From the NCBI RefSeq assembly GCF_902459745.1, contig NZ_CABPSJ010000004.1, positions 372,001 to 436,000 of the forward strand: a DNA stretch of 64,000 nt. The letters are read 5' to 3'. This document shows positions 8,172 through 64,000 of the stretch, one piece after another (position 1 is the first letter of the stretch; every line of letters begins with the position of its first letter). The notes under the pieces were generated by a model. That model made no database searches and was not told where the DNA came from. It worked only from the letters and a program-made list of their open reading frames with translations. The stretch is from Pandoraea communis (GTDB taxonomy: Bacteria > Pseudomonadota > Gammaproteobacteria > Burkholderiales > Burkholderiaceae). A program made the translations under genes and the position numbers.

Positions 8172-8598
8172 CTTAGGCTTCGAGCCACATCAAGCCAAAC
8201 GCTGTAATCCCTGCTATTCCAGGGTATTGCGCGACATTCTCCGTTCCCTGACAGGTGCCGCAACATAGCCAGACACGGCTGTTTACGCGACTCAGTGCAC
8301 CAAATTTGCACCGGATATTGCACCGGGAAAAATTGGCGGCATATGTGAAGCGGAATGGTGGTTGGCCGGGGCAAGCGCGCTTTGCCCCAGCGTCTATTGC
8401 CGGGCGGACAGCGGCTGCTCGGGATACTGTCCGACTGGCCGCACCGGCTTGTGGATTCAACCGGTCGGTCCACATGGTGCGCACGAAACCCTGTCACATC
8501 CCGTCAAAGGTTCGATCTGCCATGAACGCGCTCGTCGAAGGATGCCCGCGCAGATTGGGTGCGGCTGCGACGAGCGCGTTGCATGACGCATGCCGCCG
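8172..8598. other. Non-coding stretch after tRNA-Leu, with a short repeated TGCACC motif
   Basis: About 430 bases with no convincing gene. TGCACC occurs at 8296-8301, 8307-8312 and 8319-8324, the last two within TTGCACCGG copies 12 bases apart. Small tandem boxes beside a tRNA 3-prime end can be arm-type sites left by a tyrosine integrase, but no integrase gene or second copy of the tRNA end is visible, so the link to an element is only suggestive. Confidence 0.35.
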
Positions 8599-9321
8599 TT
8601 ACAAAAGGCTGACCTTACCCGTGGCCAGATCGTACATGGCGCCGACCACTTTTACCCGGCCGTCCTTCACGTAGCGCCCGAGGATCGGTTTGGAGACAGT
8701 CAGGCGGCCGGCGTTGATACGCACATTCTCAATCGTGGCCCTCGCCGCCAGATCATCTTCACCCCCGTCATGTCTGGCGGCCAGAACGGCCGGCTTGATG
8801 GAACGCACCAAGTCACCCAAATGGCCCGGCATGACGGCGTTCTCCTGAATCATCTTCACTGTGGCCGACACTGCGCCGCAGTTGGTATGTCCGAGAACCA
8901 TGACCAGCGGTACGCTAAGAAACTTGACGCCATACTCGAGGCTTGCCAGTCCATCGTCGTTGACGAAGTTTCCTGCAACGCGCACGACGAAGAGGTCGCC
9001 GGGCCCCTGATCGAAAGCCAGTTCCGGAGCGACGCGCGCGTCCGCACAACTGACGATCGCGGCGATGGGGTATTGAGCCGTTACCCGTGCCGCGCGTCCA
9101 GCAGAGTAGTCTTTGTTCAAAGGCGCATTGGCGACGTAACGCGCATTGCCTTCCATCAGGCGGGCGAGCGCCGCATCGGGCGCAATCGCGTTCGGCGCCG
9201 GGCCGGCCGACGGTTCTGCTGCAAAGCCGTCCCGGGCGGTGACGCCACTGAGAGCCATCGCGGCGGCTCCGGCGAAAAGCATCTGACGGCGGGGCATCGA
9301 GGGAGCGTGATGGTCGCACAT
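8599..9321 (-). CDS. Exported beta-class carbonic anhydrase
   Basis: 240 residues. It interconverts CO2 and bicarbonate. The zinc site is complete: Cys92, Asp94 and Arg96 in SCADAR, then His145 and Cys148 in GHTNCGA. The N-terminus has a paired Arg followed by a hydrophobic stretch (MPRRQMLFAGAAAMALSG), so export to the periplasm, possibly by the Tat route, is likely. Start 9321 is supported by AAAGGA eight bases upstream; an internal ATG at 9297 is the alternative. It is divergent from the regulator gene at 9545 across an AT-richer spacer of 220 bases. Confidence 0.88.
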   Translation of the reverse strand: MCDHHAPSMPRRQMLFAGAAAMALSGVTARDGFAAEPSAGPAPNAIAPDAALARLMEGNARYVANAPLNKDYSAGRAARVTAQYPIAAIVSCADARVAPELAFDQGPGDLFVVRVAGNFVNDDGLASLEYGVKFLSVPLVMVLGHTNCGAVSATVKMIQENAVMPGHLGDLVRSIKPAVLAARHDGGEDDLAARATIENVRINAGRLTVSKPILGRYVKDGRVKVVGAMYDLATGKVSLL

Positions 9322-9544
9322 GATCGTTTCCTTTAGTTTTGGACTACGTTGTTTTGAGCAAATGCTTTTGGCCCTGGCGATTTTGTCTGGCGATCGGGAC
9401 GATGCAATCGTATCGAGGTCGGTATTGTTCGGGGAAGTCCAATTTTTGCATGTATATTTGACGCTATTCTTTAATGCACTTCGCTGTCGCAGAAACAGGG
9501 AAAAACAGAGCGCAAATTGATGTGGCCAAACGGGGGAAATTCGG

Positions 9545-12771: not shown

Positions 12772-13320
12772 CTATTGCGCTGTCGATGAGTCCGTCGGAT
12801 GATGGTGCATCATTCCGGGATCGTGTCCTGCCACCGCATCGTGCCCGTGATCGGACAACTGGGCATCAAACCATTCGTGCAGCGCAGTGATGAGACGAGG
12901 CGCTTCCGTGCGGTAGACGATTTCGCCGCCATCGGGCAAGTCGCGATAGTCGATCTTCAGCTCGCCCGGCTTCGCGGTACGCAGCGCGGCCAAGCCCGGC
13001 ATGTCAATGCCGTGGATCTGCTCCGGCGCTTCGAAATGGCCTGCCGAGAACTGCCTGGCAATGATGGACAGATGTTCGCGAATTAGCGCGACCTGTTTCA
13101 GGTCGTGATGCTTCGTGACGACCTGCTGGATTCCGCCGTCGGCCGTCTTCGCAAAGATGTGGGTGGTAGCCGCAAGGGAGAACGGCATCACCTCTGCGCC
13201 GTGCCGTGACACGTCCATCCGGCGCGCCGTATCGTCGGCGACTGCAGACGACGAGAGAACGAAGACGCCGAGCAGGACGGAGGTCGATGCGGCGATGACA
13301 GGAGATAAAAGGCGCTTCAT
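12772..13320 (-). CDS. Exported protein of unknown function with a His/Met-rich tail
   Basis: 182 residues from ATG 13320, preferred over the ATG four codons upstream because GGAG lies six bases before it. A Sec signal peptide (LLSPVIAASTSVLLGVFVLSSSAVA) is followed by a mixed alpha/beta domain with MPFSLAATTHIF, a helix at ALIREHLSIIARQFSAG and YRDLPDGGEIVYRTE. The tail HGHDAVAGHDPGMMHHHPTD looks like a metal-binding sequence. Closely similar periplasmic proteins are, as far as I recall, of unknown biochemical role. It belongs to a run of three minus-strand genes with Met/His-rich motifs. Confidence 0.65.
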   Translation of the reverse strand: MKRLLSPVIAASTSVLLGVFVLSSSAVADDTARRMDVSRHGAEVMPFSLAATTHIFAKTADGGIQQVVTKHHDLKQVALIREHLSIIARQFSAGHFEAPEQIHGIDMPGLAALRTAKPGELKIDYRDLPDGGEIVYRTEAPRLITALHEWFDAQLSDHGHDAVAGHDPGMMHHHPTDSSTAQ

Positions 13321-13571
13321 GTTCCACTCCAATCGAAAGACGGCTTGCAGCCTAGCGCCAGTATCCTACTCTGACGACGATATGACTGAAATCATGCGCG
13401 GTGCGGCGATGTTTACCCGAGAGCTGGCCACACGGGGAATCGCGGACCAACGCGACCAGGCAAACGTCGTCAAACCTCACTATTCGTGCCCCCGACTGCC
13501 CCCGATTTTTACAGGGATAGCCGGTTTCGGAAGTGCGATTCCCGCCGGTTAAGCGGGCATCGGTTTTCGAA

Positions 13572-14483
13572 TCACTGAAGAAATGTAGTGATGGCTGTCA
13601 TCGTCGCTTGCGGTTGTTCTTCCATCAACCAGTGGCCGGCATTCGGAATCACAACGCCTTGCACGTTGCTGGCCGCCGCACGCGCGACCGTCTCCATCAT
13701 GGTGCCGAACGACTTTTCTTCGCCGATCGCGAGTACCGGCATTGGCAACGGCCCTTGGGTCAGAAATGCCCGGTTGTCGATCGCATCCTGATCGAAGGCG
13801 TGAAACTGTTCGAAGCCGGAATGCATCGCGCCAGGCAGCGCATAGAACTTTGCGTAATGCCGGCGCGAAGCTTCATTGAAATTCTTGGGGTCCGCCGAAA
13901 ACTCGTTCCAGAAGCGATCGAGGTAAATGCGCTCGCGGCCCTTGACCAGCCGCTCCATATCCGGCCCGCCGAAACGGAAGTGCCAGAGTAGCGGGCTCTT
14001 CAAGATTTCTTCCCACGGGCCGACGCCGGGAATCGGTGCATCCATGAGTACGAGTTTTGTCACGCGCTCAGGCTGCTCGGCCGCGAAAGCGTAGGCGACC
14101 ATGTTGCCGATGTCATGGGCCACCACGTCGACTTTGCCAATCCGGAGGGTATCCAGAACGCCGGCAATATCGCGTGCTTCGTTCTTTTTGTCGTAGCCTG
14201 TGGCCGGATGGTCGGAGAGTCCCATGCCGCGAAGATCGGGGACGATCACGGTGTGATTTGCAGCGAGTTTCGCGGCGAGTGGCGCCCACATGTCGCCGGT
14301 CTCGCCATAGCCGTGCAGCAATACGACGGCAGGCCCGTGGCCGCCGACGCGCACATATATTTTCGCGCCGTTGGTGGTCAGGGTCTGGTGCTTGAAATCG
14401 GCCGGAAACGCGAATACGTCGGCCGCCGCAGGAAAAGCGTGAAGAGAGACAAGCAACAACAGAAACGAGACGAGCTTCCGCAT
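13572..14483 (-). CDS. Exported alpha/beta hydrolase, epoxide-hydrolase-like
   Basis: 303 residues from ATG 14483 (GGGGG upstream). A Sec signal peptide (MRKLVSFLLLLVSLHAFPAAA) precedes an alpha/beta-hydrolase domain: oxyanion motif HGYGETGDMW, nucleophile elbow AHDIGN with Asp rather than Ser, and C-terminal NAGHWLMEE with the catalytic His. An Asp nucleophile is characteristic of epoxide hydrolases and haloalkane/haloacetate dehalogenases. The substrate is not predictable. The export signal makes it periplasmic, which is less usual for this group. Confidence 0.8.
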   Translation of the reverse strand: MRKLVSFLLLLVSLHAFPAAADVFAFPADFKHQTLTTNGAKIYVRVGGHGPAVVLLHGYGETGDMWAPLAAKLAANHTVIVPDLRGMGLSDHPATGYDKKNEARDIAGVLDTLRIGKVDVVAHDIGNMVAYAFAAEQPERVTKLVLMDAPIPGVGPWEEILKSPLLWHFRFGGPDMERLVKGRERIYLDRFWNEFSADPKNFNEASRRHYAKFYALPGAMHSGFEQFHAFDQDAIDNRAFLTQGPLPMPVLAIGEEKSFGTMMETVARAAASNVQGVVIPNAGHWLMEEQPQATMTAITTFLQ

Positions 14484-14649
14484 TTCTGACCCCCTGGGGT
14501 TGATCAAAACGATCTGCCTGTGGCGCGGATATTCTCACATCTTTCCGGATTACGGCGCTAAATCCGCATACGGACGGCCTGAATTGAAGGCACTCGCCTT
14601 CCGGCAGCTCGCACGTCAACGTCCCCGCGCATTACCGCCCCGTCTCATC

Positions 14650-15078
14650 TCACTTGAACGTGTGCAGGTAAGCGATCAGATCCGCGACCTTGCGTTCGTT
14701 GCCAATGCCCCAGAAGCGCATCTTTGTACCAGGCACGGTCTTGCCCGGATTGGCGATGAAGGCGGCGAGCGTCTTGTCGTCCCACACGATGCCCGACTGC
14801 TTCATCTCCTTCGAGTAATCGAAGTCCGGCAGACTGCCCGCGCGCCGGTTGGCAATGCCGTTGAGTTGAGGGCCGAAGCCCGACGCCGCCATCGGCCCGA
14901 CCGAATGACACGATGCGCAGCGTGAGGTGAACAGCGCCTTGCCGGCGTCGATATCCGGTGCGGCGAAGGCCGATGCGGCAAACGTGGCTAGGGCAAACGT
15001 CAACACGCCGATTCGCAGGCGCGCAGCGGGGGCAAGACGCTGGGCCGGCAAGCAAAGAGGGGTAGAGCGGGTAGTCAT
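14650..15078 (-). CDS. Periplasmic class I cytochrome c
   Basis: 142 residues with a long N-terminal signal (hydrophobic IGVLTFALATFAASAFA, cleavage near residue 40). There is one heme site, Cys54-Ala-Ser-Cys57-His58, with Met120 (GTKMRF) as the likely sixth ligand. Size and motifs fit the soluble cytochrome c2/c550 group, which carries single electrons in the periplasm. It stands alone; no oxidase or dehydrogenase partner is adjacent. Confidence 0.88.
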   Translation of the reverse strand: MTTRSTPLCLPAQRLAPAARLRIGVLTFALATFAASAFAAPDIDAGKALFTSRCASCHSVGPMAASGFGPQLNGIANRRAGSLPDFDYSKEMKQSGIVWDDKTLAAFIANPGKTVPGTKMRFWGIGNERKVADLIAYLHTFK

Positions 15079-15521
15079 TGGCGGGTGGAATGTCGGGGGA
15101 TCGGTGGTAACGGCAAACCGCTAAGTTACCGCTTTCCGCCGGGCACGGCCAGTGGTTCCCGCCCCGCGTCGTACAACATCGTGTCGTGAGCGCAGAGGTT
15201 GAGCACTTCGAGCGCGCCTGATGCCGAACCGGGGGCAGCATGCGTTCGCACCGTCATGACGGCAGTTCGCGATGCCTTTGGTCATGACGGGGGTATCCGC
15301 CTACGGTGCGGCCAGTACCTTCACGACGCACGCGCTGGCGTTGATCGCTTGGGCGAGTGCGGTGGCGATTGCCGTTGTGCTGCGCTCGGCGTTGGGATGG
15401 TGGGGGCGCGTGAGCTGGCTGCCGGTGACGCGTCGCTGGCGCCGTGAGTTGACTGCTGTGAGTCTGCAAAGGCCGTCAGCGCTTGTCTGCTAACGGCCGT
15501 TCGCGTGCGGTGATGGTGGTA
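15079..15521. other. Intergenic region
   Basis: About 440 bases between the cytochrome c gene and the ABC transporter operon. Apart from the doubtful small frame at 15284-15493, nothing is supported. No strong terminator is visible at the end of the ABC operon. Confidence 0.45.
15284..15493 (+). CDS. Possible small membrane protein (doubtful)
   Basis: 69 residues starting MTGVSAYGA, with one strongly hydrophobic segment (ALALIAWASAVAIAVVL) followed by a basic region (RVSWLPVTRRWRRE), the layout of a single-span inner-membrane protein. No ribosome binding site is evident, and the frame lies alone between two minus-strand genes, so it may be chance. Confidence 0.25.
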   Translation: MTGVSAYGAASTFTTHALALIAWASAVAIAVVLRSALGWWGRVSWLPVTRRWRRELTAVSLQRPSALVC

Positions 15522-16319
15522 TTACGCCGCGCCCTTCGTCACGCTGTCCGGCAAATCGCGGCCGTGATACTTCTTGTAGATCGCGTTGAGCTTGCCGTTC
15601 TTCAGGTTGGTCTTCACCCAGTTGTTGATCCAGTCCTTGAGCGCGGGCTGATTCTTGTTCAGCGCGATACCAAGATCGAATTCCTTCTGCGCGAATTTCA
15701 GTTCGAGGTTCTTGTCCGGTGCGCGCTTGATCATCTCGCCGAGGTTCGACGGCGTGCTCGAGAAGATATCGACCTGCCCCGTCACCATCGACGTGATGAG
15801 CGTGGCGTCGTCTTCATAGCGAACGATCTGTGCGCCCTTGGCGTTCTGCGTGGTGAGCGTATCGTTGACGGTCGCGCGCGTGAGGCCGATGCGTTTGCCG
15901 TTGAGGTCGTCATAGCCCTTGATGTTCACACTCTTGGGCCCGCCCACGATGATCGAAATGACGGCGTACGGAATCGAGAAGTCGATCACCTGCGCACGTT
16001 CCGGCGTAATCGAGAGATCGGCCACCACGATATCGGCACGGTTCGCTTGCAGCGTCGGCACGCGTGCGGCGTTCGTCACAGACACGATATCGAGCTTCAC
16101 GCCCAGATCCTGCGCCAGCAGCTTGGCAGTGTCGACGTCCGAGCCCGCCGGTTGCAGATTGGCGTCGGCGAACGAGTACAGCGGTGTGCCCATGGCGATC
16201 GCAACGCGAATCTTGCCCGCCTTCTTGATGTCGTCGAGCTGATCTGCGAAAGCGGTGTGCGCCATTGCACCGAGCAGGACGGCGGCGCAGGCCCGAGTGA
16301 GGAACGTCTTGAGTTTCAT
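15522..16319 (-). CDS. Amino-acid ABC transporter, periplasmic binding protein
   Basis: 265 residues, family 3 extracellular solute-binding protein. A signal peptide (FLTRACAAVLLGAMAHTAFA) is followed by GKIRVAIAMGTPLYSFAD and the ADIVVADLSITPERAQVIDFS segment characteristic of polar amino-acid binders. It captures an amino acid in the periplasm for the permease pair encoded upstream. It is the last gene of a four-gene minus-strand operon, 43 bases after the ATPase gene. Confidence 0.9.
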   Translation of the reverse strand: MKLKTFLTRACAAVLLGAMAHTAFADQLDDIKKAGKIRVAIAMGTPLYSFADANLQPAGSDVDTAKLLAQDLGVKLDIVSVTNAARVPTLQANRADIVVADLSITPERAQVIDFSIPYAVISIIVGGPKSVNIKGYDDLNGKRIGLTRATVNDTLTTQNAKGAQIVRYEDDATLITSMVTGQVDIFSSTPSNLGEMIKRAPDKNLELKFAQKEFDLGIALNKNQPALKDWINNWVKTNLKNGKLNAIYKKYHGRDLPDSVTKGAA

Positions 16320-16362
16320 GCAGTGGTCTCCTTGGAGTGATGTTGTTGTCGTGACTGCGTGC

Positions 16363-17091
16363 TTACAGCCCGTTGGCGAGGAATGCGCGCAGTTCGGGCG
16401 TTTGCGGGTTGTCGATCATTTCGCCCGGACCGACTTCCCATACCTTGCCCTGATGCATGTAGATGATCTGATCGGCCACGCGCTTGGCGAACGCCATCTC
16501 GTGCGTGACGAGCAGCATCGTCATGCCGTCGGCCGCGAGGTCTTCCATGACGCGCAGCACTTCGCCCGTGAGTTGCGGATCGAGTGCCGACGTCACTTCA
16601 TCGAATAGCATGACTTTTGGCGACATCGCGAGCGAGCGGGCAATGGCCACACGTTGTTGCTGGCCGCCCGAGAGTTGCTCGGGATAACTGTCGGCCTTAT
16701 CGGAAAGGCCCACTTGTGCGAGCACACGCTTGGCCACTTCCTCCGCTTCGCCGCGCGCCAGACGCTTCACGTGCCGTAGCGCAAGCATGATGTTCTCGCG
16801 CACGCTCAGGTGCGGAAACAAGTTGTAGCTCTGGAAGACGATGCCCACTTCGCGGCGCAGTTGATGCAGGTCGATCTGCGGATCTTCCACACGAATGCCG
16901 CACACTTCGATGGAGCCTTCGTCGATGGTTTCCAGGCGGTCGATACAACGCAGTGCCGTACTCTTGCCCGAGCCGCTCGCGCCGATGATGGCGACCATCT
17001 TGCCGCGCTCCACTTCGAACGACACGCCCTTGAGCACCGGGTTGTCGCCGAAGCGCTTGTGAATCTGGTTGACCTTAACGATTGCCGACAT
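16363..17091 (-). CDS. Amino-acid ABC transporter ATP-binding protein (GlnQ-like)
   Basis: 242 residues. Walker A GASGSGKST (37-45), signature LSGGQQQR, Walker B VMLFDEVTSALDP and the switch His in LLVTHEMAFA are all present. It energises the two permeases. The start at 17091 overlaps the end of the preceding permease gene by 17 bases. Confidence 0.93.
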   Translation of the reverse strand: MSAIVKVNQIHKRFGDNPVLKGVSFEVERGKMVAIIGASGSGKSTALRCIDRLETIDEGSIEVCGIRVEDPQIDLHQLRREVGIVFQSYNLFPHLSVRENIMLALRHVKRLARGEAEEVAKRVLAQVGLSDKADSYPEQLSGGQQQRVAIARSLAMSPKVMLFDEVTSALDPQLTGEVLRVMEDLAADGMTMLLVTHEMAFAKRVADQIIYMHQGKVWEVGPGEMIDNPQTPELRAFLANGL

Positions 17092-17728
17092 TGAGCCTGT
17101 CCTCCAGTGAAGCGCTCCAGCGCGAGAGTGGGTAGCACAGCACGAAATAAAAAACCCCCACCAGCGAGAACACGAGGAAGGGCTGGAAAATCGAGTTGTT
17201 GATGATCTGGCCGGCACGCGTGAGTTCCACGAAGCCGATGACCGACGCCAGCGACGTCATCTTGATGATCTGCACGAGAAAGCCGATGGTCGGCGGCAGC
17301 GACAGGCGCACGGCCTGCGGAATGATGACCAGACGCAGCGTCTGCCAGCGCGAGAGCGACAAGCACTCGGCAGCCTCCCACTGTGCACGCGGCATCGCTT
17401 CGACGCAGCCACGCCAGATGTCGCCCAGATAGGCGCTGGTGTAGACCATCAGCGCAAGCGCGGCGGCCACGATGGCGGGCAGCTCGAAGCCGTACACCGA
17501 CAACCCGAAGTAGACGATGAACAGCAGGATCAGCAGCGGAATTCCCTGAATCGCTTCGATGAACACCTGCGCGGGCAGTCGCAACCAGCGGCGCGGCGAG
17601 ATGCGCGCGAGCATCACGAGGAAGCCGCCTGCGCTGCCCAGCACGAACGCGATCAGGGAGAGCACCAGCGTCCAGCCGATGGACTGCACCAGATACCCGA
17701 AATAGGTCCACGAAAAGTTGCCGATCAT
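17075..17728 (-). CDS. Amino-acid ABC transporter permease
   Basis: 217 residues with about five membrane helices and the HisM/GlnP-type coupling loop EAAECLSLSRWQTLRLVIIP, which docks on the ATPase. The start ATG at 17728 overlaps the stop of the other permease gene by four bases. The two permeases probably form a heterodimer in the inner membrane. Confidence 0.9.
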   Translation of the reverse strand: MIGNFSWTYFGYLVQSIGWTLVLSLIAFVLGSAGGFLVMLARISPRRWLRLPAQVFIEAIQGIPLLILLFIVYFGLSVYGFELPAIVAAALALMVYTSAYLGDIWRGCVEAMPRAQWEAAECLSLSRWQTLRLVIIPQAVRLSLPPTIGFLVQIIKMTSLASVIGFVELTRAGQIINNSIFQPFLVFSLVGVFYFVLCYPLSRWSASLEDRLNVGNR

Positions 17729-18513
17729 GAGGCGCTCCGTTGTGCCGTATTGCTGCCCGCAGAGCCTGTCGCGTTCGGATTGGCTGCGCGCGAGGCGGCA
17801 GCGCGGCGGCGCGAGGCCTGAGCCGCCTGCGCTGCGGCGCGTCGCACGGTACGGCGGCGCTTGAAGAAGTACTCGCTGGCGGCCCACGCCACCAGCTTCA
17901 CCAGCAGCGACAGACCAAGGTAGAGCGCGGCCACGACGATGTACGTCTCGAGCGAGCGGAACGTGTCCGACTGCACAGTGTTGGCCACCGCGGTCAGTTC
18001 TTCGGCGGAAATCTGCGAGGCCATGGCGGAGGCCTGCATCATCAGAATGAACTGGGTGGTCAGCGCCGGGTACACCTTCTCGATGGACGGTTGCAGCATG
18101 ACGTGCCACGCAATGCGCCACTTCGACAGCCCCAGACACTCGGCGGCTTCGATCTGACCGCGCGGCACCGATTCGAGCCCGGCGCGAATGATCTCCGCCG
18201 CGTAAGCACCGATGTTGATCACCATCGCGATGACGGCGGCTGCAAACGTCGGCATATGTATGCCGAGACTCGCGAGGCCGAAGTAGAGCAGGAATATCTG
18301 AACGAGGAATGGCGTGTTGCGTACCGACTCGATGTAGATGTTGCAAAGGCGAACGAGCCATCGATGGCGGCTGCGCTTGGCAAAGGCGACCAGCGTGCCG
18401 GCAGCGGTGCCGATCACGACAGCGAGTACGGTCATCTTGAGCGTGAGCCACGCGCCTTCGAGGAAAACTGGCCAGTATGGAACCAGCGGGGCGAAATTCA
18501 ACGAGAAATGCAT
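17725..18513 (-). CDS. Amino-acid ABC transporter permease with a basic C-terminal tail
   Basis: 262 residues, first gene of the operon. The HisM/GlnP-type permease core spans residues about 1-218 with coupling loop EAAECLGLSKWRIAWHVMLQP. Unlike its 217-residue partner, it carries a roughly 40-residue low-complexity tail rich in Arg, Ala and Ser (FKRRRTVRRAAAQAAQASRR and beyond), probably cytoplasmic and disordered. The operon is divergent from an Lrp/AsnC regulator. Confidence 0.9.
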   Translation of the reverse strand: MHFSLNFAPLVPYWPVFLEGAWLTLKMTVLAVVIGTAAGTLVAFAKRSRHRWLVRLCNIYIESVRNTPFLVQIFLLYFGLASLGIHMPTFAAAVIAMVINIGAYAAEIIRAGLESVPRGQIEAAECLGLSKWRIAWHVMLQPSIEKVYPALTTQFILMMQASAMASQISAEELTAVANTVQSDTFRSLETYIVVAALYLGLSLLVKLVAWAASEYFFKRRRTVRRAAAQAAQASRRRAAASRAANPNATGSAGSNTAQRSAS

Positions 18514-18915
18514 GACAAACGCCTGTCTCCGGTGACGTTCGGGGCCGACGCGCCACGCCGCTTGCGTTGCGGTTATGACGTCCGCAGTAGCCGTGGTGGG
18601 TCTTTCTTGTACGTCGTCATATAAGTGATGTGATTTTGCGCATCGCCAATCGGCGTTGTCAATAGCCTGCCGTTGGGGAGATACCCTTGGCTATGGCCTT
18701 GATTGGACAAGGGTTAAAGGGCGTTTGCGCCGTGGGGCGGGGCACTTCGGATTGCGTGAGGCGACCTCAACGACAGGTTGATGGCAGCGGGTTTCGCAGG
18801 CTTGTCATCGTATCTCTCGTTGTGAGAGGCGACGGACCGCCTGACACGACGGCATGGTTTTATAATCGCGCTTTGCCGGTCTTTTGCCTCGCCCGGCATC
18901 TCTCGACGGAAAAAC
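18514..18915. other. Divergent control region of the ABC operon and the Lrp-type regulator
   Basis: About 400 bases. A TATAAT hexamer lies at 18861-18866 on the plus strand, 50 bases before the small frame at 18916; no good -35 element is spaced correctly. An Lrp-type regulator would be expected to bind here, but I cannot define a site. No other gene is supported. Confidence 0.4.
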
Positions 18916-61703: not shown

Positions 61704-62054
61704 AGCGAGCCAAGCACTAGCGCCACATCCATCTTCCATGAGGTAAACCGCGCAACGCGGTTTGTGCACTGCACGGCACATCAATCCACTGGGAAAATTC
61801 TTAATAGAGCCTTCTTCTGCCCCGCGCACTGCGGGGCTTCCCGTCTATACGGCCATCGGTCGTCGTTGCCCCGCTGGCCCGTACTTCACCGACGAGCGCG
61901 GTGGCGTCGTCGGCAAAATCACTCCCTCTCTCGTGGAAGTCGACCTCTGTTGATAGTCATTGGGCTGCCGGGGTGCCGATGTGTCAGTGCATTTCTCGCA
62001 CAGAATCCTTGGAGCCGGCGTCCGATGTTTATTTGACTCTAGGAGCGAGAAAAC
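61704..62054. other. Intergenic region before the Gly-X-Gln repeat gene
   Basis: About 350 bases with lower GC. Two hairpins: AAACCGCG/CGCGGTTT (61745-61763), and GCCCCGC/GCGGGGC (61819-61837) followed by TTCCCGTCT, a weak terminator-like end for the dnaJ-pabB transcript. A good ribosome binding site (AGGAGCGAGAAAAC) precedes 62055. The promoter of the repeat gene must lie here, but no clear hexamer pair was found. Confidence 0.5.
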
Positions 62055-62966
62055 ATGAACGAGAACGATCTTGAACTGCAGCTTAACGAAGACCAGATTC
62101 GCCATATTCAGGCGATGACCGGACAACGTATCGGGGCGATTCGAGTGGTGTCGAATTTCCCGGGGCTTCAAGGGATACAGGGTGTGCAGGGCGTGCAAGG
62201 TGCACAGGGTATGCAAGGTGCGCAAGGCTTGCAGGGAGTCCAGGGGGTGCAAGGCCCGCAAGGTATGCAGGGTATTCAGGGTGTGCAAGGGCCGCAGGGT
62301 TATCCGAACGCTCAAGGCATGCAAGGCCCGCAAGGCATGCAGGGTGTTCAGGGCATGCAAGGGCCGCAGGGATATCAGCACGCTCAAGGTGTGCAAGGCC
62401 CGCAAGGCATGCAGGGTGTTCAGGGCATGCAAGGGCCGCAGGGTTATCAGCACGCTCAAGGCGTGCAAGGCCCGCAAGGCATGCAGGGTGTTCAGGGCAT
62501 GCAAGGGCCGCAGGGTTATCAGCACGCTCAAGGTGTGCAAGGTCCGCAAGGCATGCAGGGTCCGCAGGGATATCAATACGCGCAAGGCGTGCAAGGCCCG
62601 CAAGGTATGCAGGGTCCGCAGGGTTATCAGCACGCTCAAGGTGTGCAAGGTCCGCAAGGTATGCAGGGTCCGCAGGGATATCAATACGCGCAAGGCGTGC
62701 AAGGCCCGCAAGGTATGCAGGGTCCGCAGGGTTATCAGCACGCTCAAGGTGTGCAAGGTCCGCAAGGTATGCAGGGTCCGCAGGGATATCAATACGCACA
62801 AGGCGTGCAAGGTCCGCAAGGTATGCAGGGTCCGCAGGGATATCAACACGCCCAAGGTGTGCAAGGCCCGCAAGGCATGCAAGGCGCTCAGGGCGTGCAA
62901 GGACCGCAGGGTGTTCAGGGTTCGGAACAGGTTCAAGGGATTCAAGGCGCCCAAGGGCTGCATTGA
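62055..62966 (+). CDS. Collagen-like protein of 89 Gly-X-Gln triplets behind a 36-residue head
   Basis: 303 residues. The head ([20 protein letters not shown], ending NFPG) is amphipathic and lacks a secretion signal or membrane segment. From residue 37 to the end everything is triplets: Gly-(Val/Met/Pro/Ala/Ile/Leu)-Gln, with ten interruptions of type GYQ-HAQ, GYQ-YAQ or GYP-NAQ that keep register, and one GSE-QVQ near the end. The commonest block is [18 protein letters not shown]. Gln at nearly every third position is unusual for bacterial collagen-like proteins, which use mixed residues. Without a signal peptide, the head could be a leader for a modifying enzyme or special exporter; the PP-loop enzyme gene follows in the same direction. 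Confidence 0.8.
62163..62963 (+). repeat. Tandem repeat array encoding the Gly-X-Gln domain
   Basis: Nine-base-periodic coding repeats grouped into higher-order units of 72 bases (three copies, residues containing [15 protein letters not shown]) and then 54 bases, alternating GYQHAQ and GYQYAQ versions. Near-identical nucleotide sequence between units points to recent unit duplication; the alternation in the 3-prime half implies that pairs of 54-base units (108 bases) were copied together. Confidence 0.9.
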
Positions 62967-63036
62967 TCGCAATGCCGATGTCTACGGCACGGGAGTGCGC
63001 AGAGGGCTTGCGCTCTCGTGTTCGTTGACAAACTGG

Positions 63037-63065
63037 GCGGCTCGGCAGCCGATTCGCCGAGCCGC
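63037..63065 (+). other. Strong hairpin between the repeat gene and the PP-loop gene
   Basis: GCGGCTCGGC (63037-63046) and GCCGAGCCGC (63056-63065) form a perfect 10-bp stem with a 9-base loop and no T run. Placed 50 bases before the next start codon, it could differentially stabilise the repeat-protein message or reduce read-through. Confidence 0.65.
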
Positions 63066-63115
63066 GAATCCCTGATGAGATATCGCTTTCGATAGCTCAC
63101 ATTGGAGTTGCGATC

Positions 63116-64000
63116 ATGTCGTCAACCCTCATGAATTTGTCGGCGGAACAACGTGCGAAGTTGTTCGATACCACTGGCGCGCCGTTGCGCAGACTTCGTG
63201 TCGACGCCGTCAGCGGCACTGCGCAGGCGATCGATCGCTACTGTCAGCGGTGTTTGCTCACAGAGGACTTACCCGGCGTGCATATCGCACCGGACGGCAT
63301 CTGCGATGCCTGTCATACCTTCGCTGCGGAATCCGCGCGCGGCGATTACACGCAGCGCAAACTTCTCGATGTGGTGGCCGCGTGCCGGGGCACGGGAACA
63401 CCGGATTGCGTGCTGGCATTCTCGGGAGGAAAGGACAGTGCCCTCACGTTGCTGCTCGCCGTCAAGGAGTTGGGCCTGCATCCCGTCGCCGTGCTCGTCG
63501 ACAACGGGTTCATTCCCGATGAAGTCAAGGACAACGCGTCATCGTTCTGTGCGCGCTTCGGTGTGTCGCTGGTGATCGAAAAGATCGATATTCGCAGGAT
63601 TGCCCGCGAGTCTCTGCAATCGGCCTCGGGGCGTATTCCCTGCTCATCGTGCATCAGCGGCGTCTTTGCCGCGATGGCGAAGACCTGCCGGGCACTCAAT
63701 CTTCGTTTCATCCTCAGTGGTCATCGGTTTCCGCCGCTTGCCTATCCCGTGAGCGGCTTTACGAAGCGTGAAGCGGACAACGGCTTCATCTGCGCCTCGC
63801 CGCTTCTGGCCAGACAGCTCACCGAGGCAGAGCAAATGCAATGGATTCGAGATGCGGGCTGGAAGCCCGTGTCAATCGCCGGCAACACATCGAATTGCAA
63901 ACTGATCGGTGTCGTGGAGCAGCATCTCTACGACGTACAGGGTTTCAATCCGCATATCTATGAGGTCTCGAAGGAAATTCGAGCCGGCTTCTACGATCGC
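63116..64000 (+). CDS. Zinc-ribbon PP-loop ATPase, N-acetyl sugar amidotransferase/LarE-like (runs off the right edge)
   Basis: 295 codons are visible from ATG 63116 (GGAG upstream), still open at the end. A zinc-ribbon-like pair CQRC (43-46) and CDAC (63-66), the ATP pyrophosphatase PP-loop SGGKDS (103-108), a further CSSC pair (176-179) and SGHRFPP (201-207). The order of ribbon then PP-loop resembles N-acetyl sugar amidotransferases of the WbpG/PseA type; LarE and thiolation enzymes share the PP-loop. All adenylate a carbonyl and replace it with N or S. No sugar-polymer genes are visible nearby; the neighbour is the Gly-X-Gln repeat protein, which makes peptide modification worth considering. 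Confidence 0.8.
   Translation, partial: MSSTLMNLSAEQRAKLFDTTGAPLRRLRVDAVSGTAQAIDRYCQRCLLTEDLPGVHIAPDGICDACHTFAAESARGDYTQRKLLDVVAACRGTGTPDCVLAFSGGKDSALTLLLAVKELGLHPVAVLVDNGFIPDEVKDNASSFCARFGVSLVIEKIDIRRIARESLQSASGRIPCSSCISGVFAAMAKTCRALNLRFILSGHRFPPLAYPVSGFTKREADNGFICASPLLARQLTEAEQMQWIRDAGWKPVSIAGNTSNCKLIGVVEQHLYDVQGFNPHIYEVSKEIRAGFYDR

Follow-up and report, generated by a model that had tools for sequence, protein, structure and literature searches.

The right-hand end of a 64,000-nucleotide stretch of the Pandoraea communis genome (the window; G000:C4:372001-436000, in a genome of 5.7 Mb whose contig extends 289 kb past the window) falls within a block of five genes that all lie on the same strand. 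The block became visible when the right flank was read as locus L002 (L002, L033-L052 and similar codes are labels of the genomic loci read), the coordinates of which are converted into window coordinates by adding 57999. Its order is a gene for a protein built of Gly-X-Gln triplets (GXQ gene; 62055-62966, + strand, an open reading frame (ORF) of 303 residues), a gene for a zinc-ribbon PP-loop enzyme of 331 residues (63116..64000, + strand, continuing 111 bases beyond the window; L002:5117-6112), a DUF6445 gene (L002:6109-6675, + strand), an ORF for a small protein of 120 residues (L002:6708-7070, + strand) and a gene for a radical S-adenosylmethionine (SAM) enzyme (L002:7087-8247, + strand). 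The window thus includes genes one and two of what is probably a five-gene cassette for making and modifying a collagen-like Gly-X-Gln polypeptide, in the manner of ribosomally synthesized and post-translationally modified peptides (RiPPs). This reading is built on which genes the block contains and how well their linkage is conserved, on the purifying selection that acts on the GXQ protein's head, on a head motif common to that protein and two of its neighbors, and on the families and motifs of the enzymes.

The GXQ protein is composed of a conserved, leader-like head of 36 residues (62055..62162, + strand) and a collagen-like core of 267 residues, which make up 89 triplets in a single register (62163..62963, + strand). 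Exact GXQ triplets number 75 of 89, with X being mainly Pro (22), Val (19), Met (16) or Tyr (9); 86 of 89 triplets end in Gln and 78 of 89 start with Gly. A preliminary description of this DNA had reported the head and 89 uninterrupted triplets ending almost always in Gln, all of which stands except for the absence of interruptions: 11 triplets have no initial Gly, and 10 of them belong to ordered GY(Q/P)-(H/Y/N)AQ interruptions, namely GYQ-HAQ (6), GYQ-YAQ (3) and GYP-NAQ (1), in which Tyr occupies position X and the next triplet has His, Tyr or Asn in place of Gly. Relatives display the variants GHQ-YAQ, GNQ-HAQ, GYQ-QAQ, GYQ-PAQ, GYQ-NAQ, GYQ-HPQ, GYL-HAQ and GYQ-YGQ. The protein carries the triplet repeat that defines bacterial collagen-like proteins and matches Pfam Collagen with 123.3 bits (cut-off 27.2), and its gene makes use of different wobble bases in the codons for Gly (GGT 37, GGC 25, GGG 9, GGA 7) as well as for Gln (CAA 49, CAG 38). 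These two observations, together with synonymous-only changes in the head, rule out an origin of the array by chance or as a frame artefact. A 375-codon open frame also runs antisense to the array (61845-62972, - strand); it is probably a by-product of the repeat codon pattern and not a gene.

The head is under purifying selection. It is identical in six genomes, which differ pairwise by 1 to 6 synonymous codons among the 36; relative to our sequence, the head of L039, a more distant one, shows 18 synonymous and 2 non-synonymous codon differences, and that of Pandoraea terrae (L042) 18 and 13, respectively. The complete core, on the other hand, ranges from 245 to 348 residues in ten Pandoraea genomes and has 128 residues in Roseateles, as expected of tandem DNA repeats, so that the gene encodes what a RiPP precursor comprises, a conserved leader and a separate core. 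Inspection of the sequence by eye revealed no secretion signal or surface anchor.

The same-direction enzyme with CxxC...CxxC and SGGKDS that had been noticed next to the array is borne out, with the motifs at residues 43-46, 63-66 and 103-108. Both the tetracysteine zinc-ribbon motif C43xxC46...GxC63xxC66 (63242..63313, + strand) and the PP-loop (63422..63439, + strand) are kept in 12/12 homologues, in the form CXXCXn[GN]XCXXC and SGGXDS that characterizes the N-acetyl-sugar amidotransferase (NASAT) family according to the available part of PMC10607449. In fold, the enzyme can be matched along 242 residues to 8wex, an N-acetyl sugar amidotransferase, and NCBIfam matches, neither of which reaches its cut-off, are WbuX (TIGR03573; 8.4e-28, 97.8 bits, cut-off 203.2) and LarE (TIGR00268; 4.4e-9, 36 bits, cut-off 150). 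The enzyme has, in addition, three candidate [4Fe-4S] ligands, C176xxC179 (63641..63652, + strand) and C261 (63896-63898), forming a CXXC-C set, which is the motif of [4Fe-4S] LarE/TtuA sulfur transferases in the text available from PMC9283937. C176 and C179 align residue for residue with the CxxC of the [4Fe-4S] LarE 8cnz/8cp4 (E=7.7e-6), with C261 lying outside the 8cnz alignment. All three occur in 11/12 homologues, the Paraburkholderia ribeironis copy being without the second, and all three are absent from seven aligned NASAT-like relatives (L015-L021). By sequence, the CXXC-C set and the NASAT motifs together suggest that the PP-loop enzyme inserts sulfur (or nitrogen) into a carbonyl. 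Four loci from the same bacterial family (L022, L023, L024 and L032) hold another PP-loop family with SACWPC...GACSSNC, which resembles this CXXC-C set.

The DUF6445 protein matches Pfam PF20043 above its cut-off (1.1e-13; 52.1 bits against 24). Its HxD...H residues H85, D87 and H163 are invariant in 9/9 sequences, as are H168 and R177, and we take the family to be of the 2-oxoglutarate (2OG)-Fe(II) oxygenase type, alongside a match to 2OG-FeII_Oxy_5 that stays below the cut-off (14.5 of 27 bits). The small protein contains an invariant F93-A94-A95-H96-[TS]-K98 stretch (F93, A94, A95, H96, K98 and L99 in 12/12) near a C-terminus that is predicted with low confidence and no secondary structure; invariant residues are equally numerous in its N-terminal half, the prediction of which is of higher confidence.

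The genes of the block tend to occur together. A family search of 398 genomes gave some PP-loop match in 52, at least 70% identity in 11, all within the genus, and 39% identity or less for the other matches listed, which were weak and general. With the head profile, 11/32 genomes of the genus were detected at E<1e-20, the next best match having an E of 0.006; the very same 11/32 carry the PP-loop gene. A radical SAM orthologue (E<1e-200) occurs in 10/32, all within the 11, with some radical SAM match in 18/32 and the best non-orthologue at 5e-41; the genome of the 11 that does not have it is Pandoraea terrae (G245), where cyanophycin synthetase-like genes are found instead. The DUF6445 and small genes adjoin the PP-loop gene in 10/10 other loci read, a count confined to these loci. 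Seven genomes (our own and L033-L038) share a first context, in which the block adjoins a substrate-binding protein gene (in L002 at 8355-9410, facing the block), with a pabB-like gene on the opposite side in 6/7; L034 ends before it, and there a contig end also cuts the array, the head being located on a separate contig. In a second context, comprising four loci (L047, L048, L049, L052), the block adjoins a LysR-type gene and an RND transporter gene. Cyanophycin synthetase genes were called on the far side of the block in L048, L049 and L052 (the search for family names covered L048 only, where two of them lie at 13275-18658); they make another kind of polymer, and their proximity may be due to chance.

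A third context is provided by Roseateles terrae (L051), where all five genes occur in order, precursor included, provided that a GTG start is assumed for the precursor ORF, which has no ATG at its head. In Paraburkholderia ribeironis, a contig of 5.3 kb (L050) carries the genes for the PP-loop enzyme, the DUF6445 protein and the small protein along with a broken radical SAM gene, and no precursor gene lies on it. With ORFs that read as transposase-like at both contig ends and one candidate cluster Cys lost, this copy looks decayed. When the contexts were compared across nine loci, each about 20 kb long, and for ORFs from 240 bases upwards, no sixth gene proved to be common to them, which defines the five genes as the unit and, with the kept order, links the putative modifying enzymes to the precursor gene across genomes, as in RiPP systems. 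The downstream enzymes, the co-occurrence and the kept gene order in two Pandoraea contexts and Roseateles all favor the candidate peptide-modification system of the preliminary description. Of the genes that it proposed to look for to the right, further enzymes did follow, and an exporter or glutaminase was not found in the block; nor did we encounter the lipopolysaccharide (LPS) or capsule cluster, with the repeat gene absent from related clusters, that it had named as an outcome speaking against it.

The head itself, LxLNxxQxxxIxxxTGxxIxxIRVV, recurs in similar form in the PP-loop enzyme (residues 5-31, LMNLSAEQRAKLFDTTGAPLRRLRVDA; 63128..63208, + strand) and in the small protein (residues 13-34). 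In hhalign comparisons of profiles, P was 2.4e-5 for head and PP-loop enzyme, 2.2e-4 for head and small protein and 0.0047 for PP-loop enzyme and small protein, and column-shuffled targets reached the observed score in 0/300, 0/300 and 1/300 cases, respectively (head and PP-loop enzyme scored 23.35 against a shuffle maximum of 15.27). Likewise, the head profile gave 24.1 with the PP-loop enzyme and 22.7 with the small protein, the best of 49 control N-termini from the window reaching 13.8, and the DUF6445 and radical SAM N-termini were not among the 14 best head-profile scores. On the Roseateles copies it gave 21.8 with the small protein and 15.2 with the PP-loop enzyme. Single-sequence alignments by themselves are weak. 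In predicted models the motif forms a helix followed by a strand in both neighbors, with good confidence in the small protein only. We infer that the common motif serves as a recognition or assembly element.

The radical SAM enzyme has a Pfam Radical_SAM match, and C29xxxC33xxC36 as well as C298, C332, C335, C341 and C362 are invariant in 6/6 sequences. Its best NCBIfam families are YhhB (6.9e-91) and FxsB (4.6e-86); it also matches GrrM (95.3 of 310 bits) and HxsB (47.4 of 370 bits), both below cut-off, and its best solved relative is ChlB (9gm3, 5.7e-65), which is termed a multiple cyclophane synthase in the title of a reference. According to the accessible text of PMC11002830, YhhB and HaaB form three-residue cyclophanes, the former linking Tyr C3 and His C2 to the beta-carbon of Arg and the latter His C2 to that of Ala. 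A plain GXQ array would place Gly, which has no beta-carbon, at position +2 of an aromatic X, and the interruptions remove exactly that Gly; the Tyr/His interruptions thus generate aromatic-X-X sites of the cyclophane type in the array. When core aromatics were counted with the final two residues of each core excluded, a residue other than Gly stood at +2 in 19/19 (L002), 22/22 (L033), 4/4 (L034, partial), 18/18 (L035), 17/17 (L036), 22/22 (L037) and 24/24 (L038) cases in the first context, and in 11/13, 7/8 and 3/4 in L039, L040 and L041. Such sites with a beta-carbon are therefore present in ten arrays of Pandoraea genomes that carry the radical SAM enzyme, as compared to only 4/25 aromatics in Pandoraea terrae, which has no radical SAM gene. 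A class-wide draw of 350 genomes yielded six with YhhB-like matches, including our own and none above the cut-off, and of seven loci read two carry, immediately upstream of the YhhB-like gene, ORFs that look like precursors and contain Tyr/His-X-Gln repeats, which share the aromatic-X-Gln pattern with HAQ/YAQ. These small ORFs, with YRQ, YSQ and YTQ repeats at about 881-1280 of L072 and YNQ, HTQ and YTQ repeats at about 1014-1235 of L073, are possibly uncharacterized precursors.

Taken together, we propose that the head would act as a recognition or docking element and that precursor, enzyme and adaptor would be held together by means of this motif, which the PP-loop enzyme and the small protein bear as well. 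It is quite probable that the GXQ protein is indeed the substrate of the enzymes. The FxsB/YhhB-like radical SAM enzyme could then cross-link aromatic residues at GYQ-(H/Y)AQ, connecting Tyr or His to the beta-carbon at position +2, and we give such cross-links slightly less than an even chance. The PP-loop enzyme could adenylate an amide carbonyl (of the Gln side chain or the backbone) and swap its oxygen for sulfur by means of a three-Cys [4Fe-4S] cluster, or for nitrogen like its sugar relatives; we lean towards sulfur insertion, with nitrogen insertion being unlikely. The DUF6445 protein might hydroxylate, for example, Pro or Gln, a suggestion for which we consider the chances evenly balanced. 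The picture in its entirety, that is a ribosomally made collagen-like polymer in which a [4Fe-4S] PP-loop enzyme with a leader of its own thiolates the regular Gln side chains (or the backbone amides) or converts them into amidines, which is stapled at intervals by Tyr/His cyclophanes and hydroxylated, and whose modifying enzymes carry the docking motif of their substrate, is unlikely to hold in every detail.

Several observations weigh against this proposal. The radical SAM enzyme remains below the curated cut-offs of both best families (304.9 of 445 bits for YhhB, 289.1 of 370 for FxsB), and so do the PP-loop scores with respect to theirs. Roseateles terrae carries the radical SAM enzyme and yet has a non-Gly residue at +2 of 0/6 core aromatics; the cyclophane site as stated therefore cannot hold in Roseateles. 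Furthermore, array units are tandem duplicates, and the +2 counts are thus not independent. As for the YhhB-like loci, identity to our radical SAM enzyme is just 29% in L072 and 34% over a short stretch in L073, where there is also a stop inside the radical SAM frame, and no Tyr/His-X-Gln ORF was seen in the other five of the seven. The head comparisons are based on few, similar sequences (effective number of sequences 1.3 to 2.9), and the Roseateles PP-loop N-terminus barely exceeds the best control. The PP-loop model has confidence scores (pLDDT) below 50 at residues 1-37, 172-177 and 253-308, which cover the head-like segment, C176 and C261, and that the aligned CxxC of 8cnz holds its cluster is concluded from the title of this entry and from the LarE motif rather than from coordinates. 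Finally, no exporter or leader protease is common to the contexts (nine loci), although such genes may lie elsewhere in the genome.

Alternatively, the small protein could be the real radical SAM precursor, with FAAH[TS]KLMA as its core, and the GXQ protein could be a scaffold or carrier to which the enzymes are bound via the head motif. This is the main rival explanation, even though we regard it as improbable. The small gene immediately precedes the radical SAM gene, the residues invariant in 12/12 hold the aromatic-X-X motifs F-A-A and H-T-K (which also speaks against our proposal), the C-terminus of the protein is predicted with low confidence and no secondary structure, and Roseateles keeps the FAAH[TS]K motif while its array is without aromatic-X-nonGly sites. 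However, the motif is likewise kept in Pandoraea terrae, which does not have the radical SAM gene, and the more confidently predicted N-terminal half has as many invariant residues.

One could also regard the GXQ protein as an ordinary bacterial collagen-like protein, a surface or intracellular filament, and the enzymes as a separate small pathway. The above-cut-off Pfam Collagen match would agree with that, as would the 13 collagen-like protein types, each dominated by one or two kinds of triplet, that the available part of PMC4565658 describes for three Burkholderia species. Confinement to the same 11/32 genomes, a gene order that does not change between three contexts in two genera and the head motif on two neighbors nevertheless make it quite improbable. 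Even less likely in our view is that the PP-loop enzyme is a true NASAT and that the block decorates a glycan, with the collagen-like protein as its glycosylated or surface partner, because the enzyme falls short of the TIGR03573 cut-off (97.8 versus 203.2), the seven NASAT-like relatives are devoid of C176, C179 and C261, no LPS or capsule genes were seen beside the Pandoraea copies and a glycosyltransferase is not common to the contexts.

How does the proposed cassette compare with known systems? The Hxs (His-Xaa-Ser) and GrrM systems are repeat-protein systems with radical SAM maturases, and our block resembles them in pairing a repetitive protein with a radical SAM enzyme; nonetheless, the matches all lie below cut-off (for the GXQ protein and HxsA4, 20.6 of 55 bits), and repeat and partners differ. 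The nearest described system that we found is the tvg RiPP pathway, consisting of the TVGG-repeat precursor TvgA, the radical SAM enzyme TvgB and the Fe/2OG oxidase TvgC (PMC9062424, available in part), where one block likewise encodes a repetitive core together with a radical SAM enzyme and an enzyme of the 2OG/Fe type. It differs in its TVGG repeats and two transporter/peptidase genes, and the portion of that source available to us mentions no PP-loop enzyme, collagen-like core or common head motif; the cassette adds a PP-loop enzyme, a small partner protein and the common head motif. YhhB, HaaB and ChlB represent the closest radical SAM families and the Tyr/His cross-linking chemistry (PMC11002830, PMC12636437, both seen as excerpts), whereas here neither the YhhB nor the FxsB cut-off is reached, a collagen-like array of 267 residues would serve as substrate and a PP-loop enzyme is added. 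With [4Fe-4S] LarE/TtuA our PP-loop enzyme shares the PP-loop and the CXXC-C set, its CXXC aligning with LarE 8cnz (PMC9283937, in its available part), and it differs in the extra head-like segment, the NASAT-type zinc ribbon and a score below the LarE cut-off. With WbuX/WbpG/LpNASAT it shares CXXC-Xn-[GN]XCXXC, SGGXDS and the fold over 242 residues (PMC10607449, likewise partial), but it additionally possesses a CXXC-C set and the head-like segment, does not lie in a glycan cluster and scores below cut-off. Uniform triplet arrays of strain-variable length are also seen in the Burkholderia Bucl proteins; in the accessible excerpt, however, their triplets are GAN, GAS, GTS, GIH and others instead of GXQ, and modifying enzymes are not mentioned (PMC4565658).

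We did not find the combination of a collagen-like Gly-X-Gln chain with three putative modifying enzymes described. Were our proposal true, bacteria would produce a long, periodically modified collagen-like chain from a compact, portable gene set, and cyclophane chemistry would reach from short peptides to a polymer. A PP-loop enzyme inserting sulfur or nitrogen would join RiPP chemistry outside the YcaO route, and a docking motif would be common to substrate and enzyme. As a separate observation, the Roseateles terrae locus contains a giant ORF with LSTxQLxAL-like repeats (L051:2-3952), some 5.5 kb upstream of the block.
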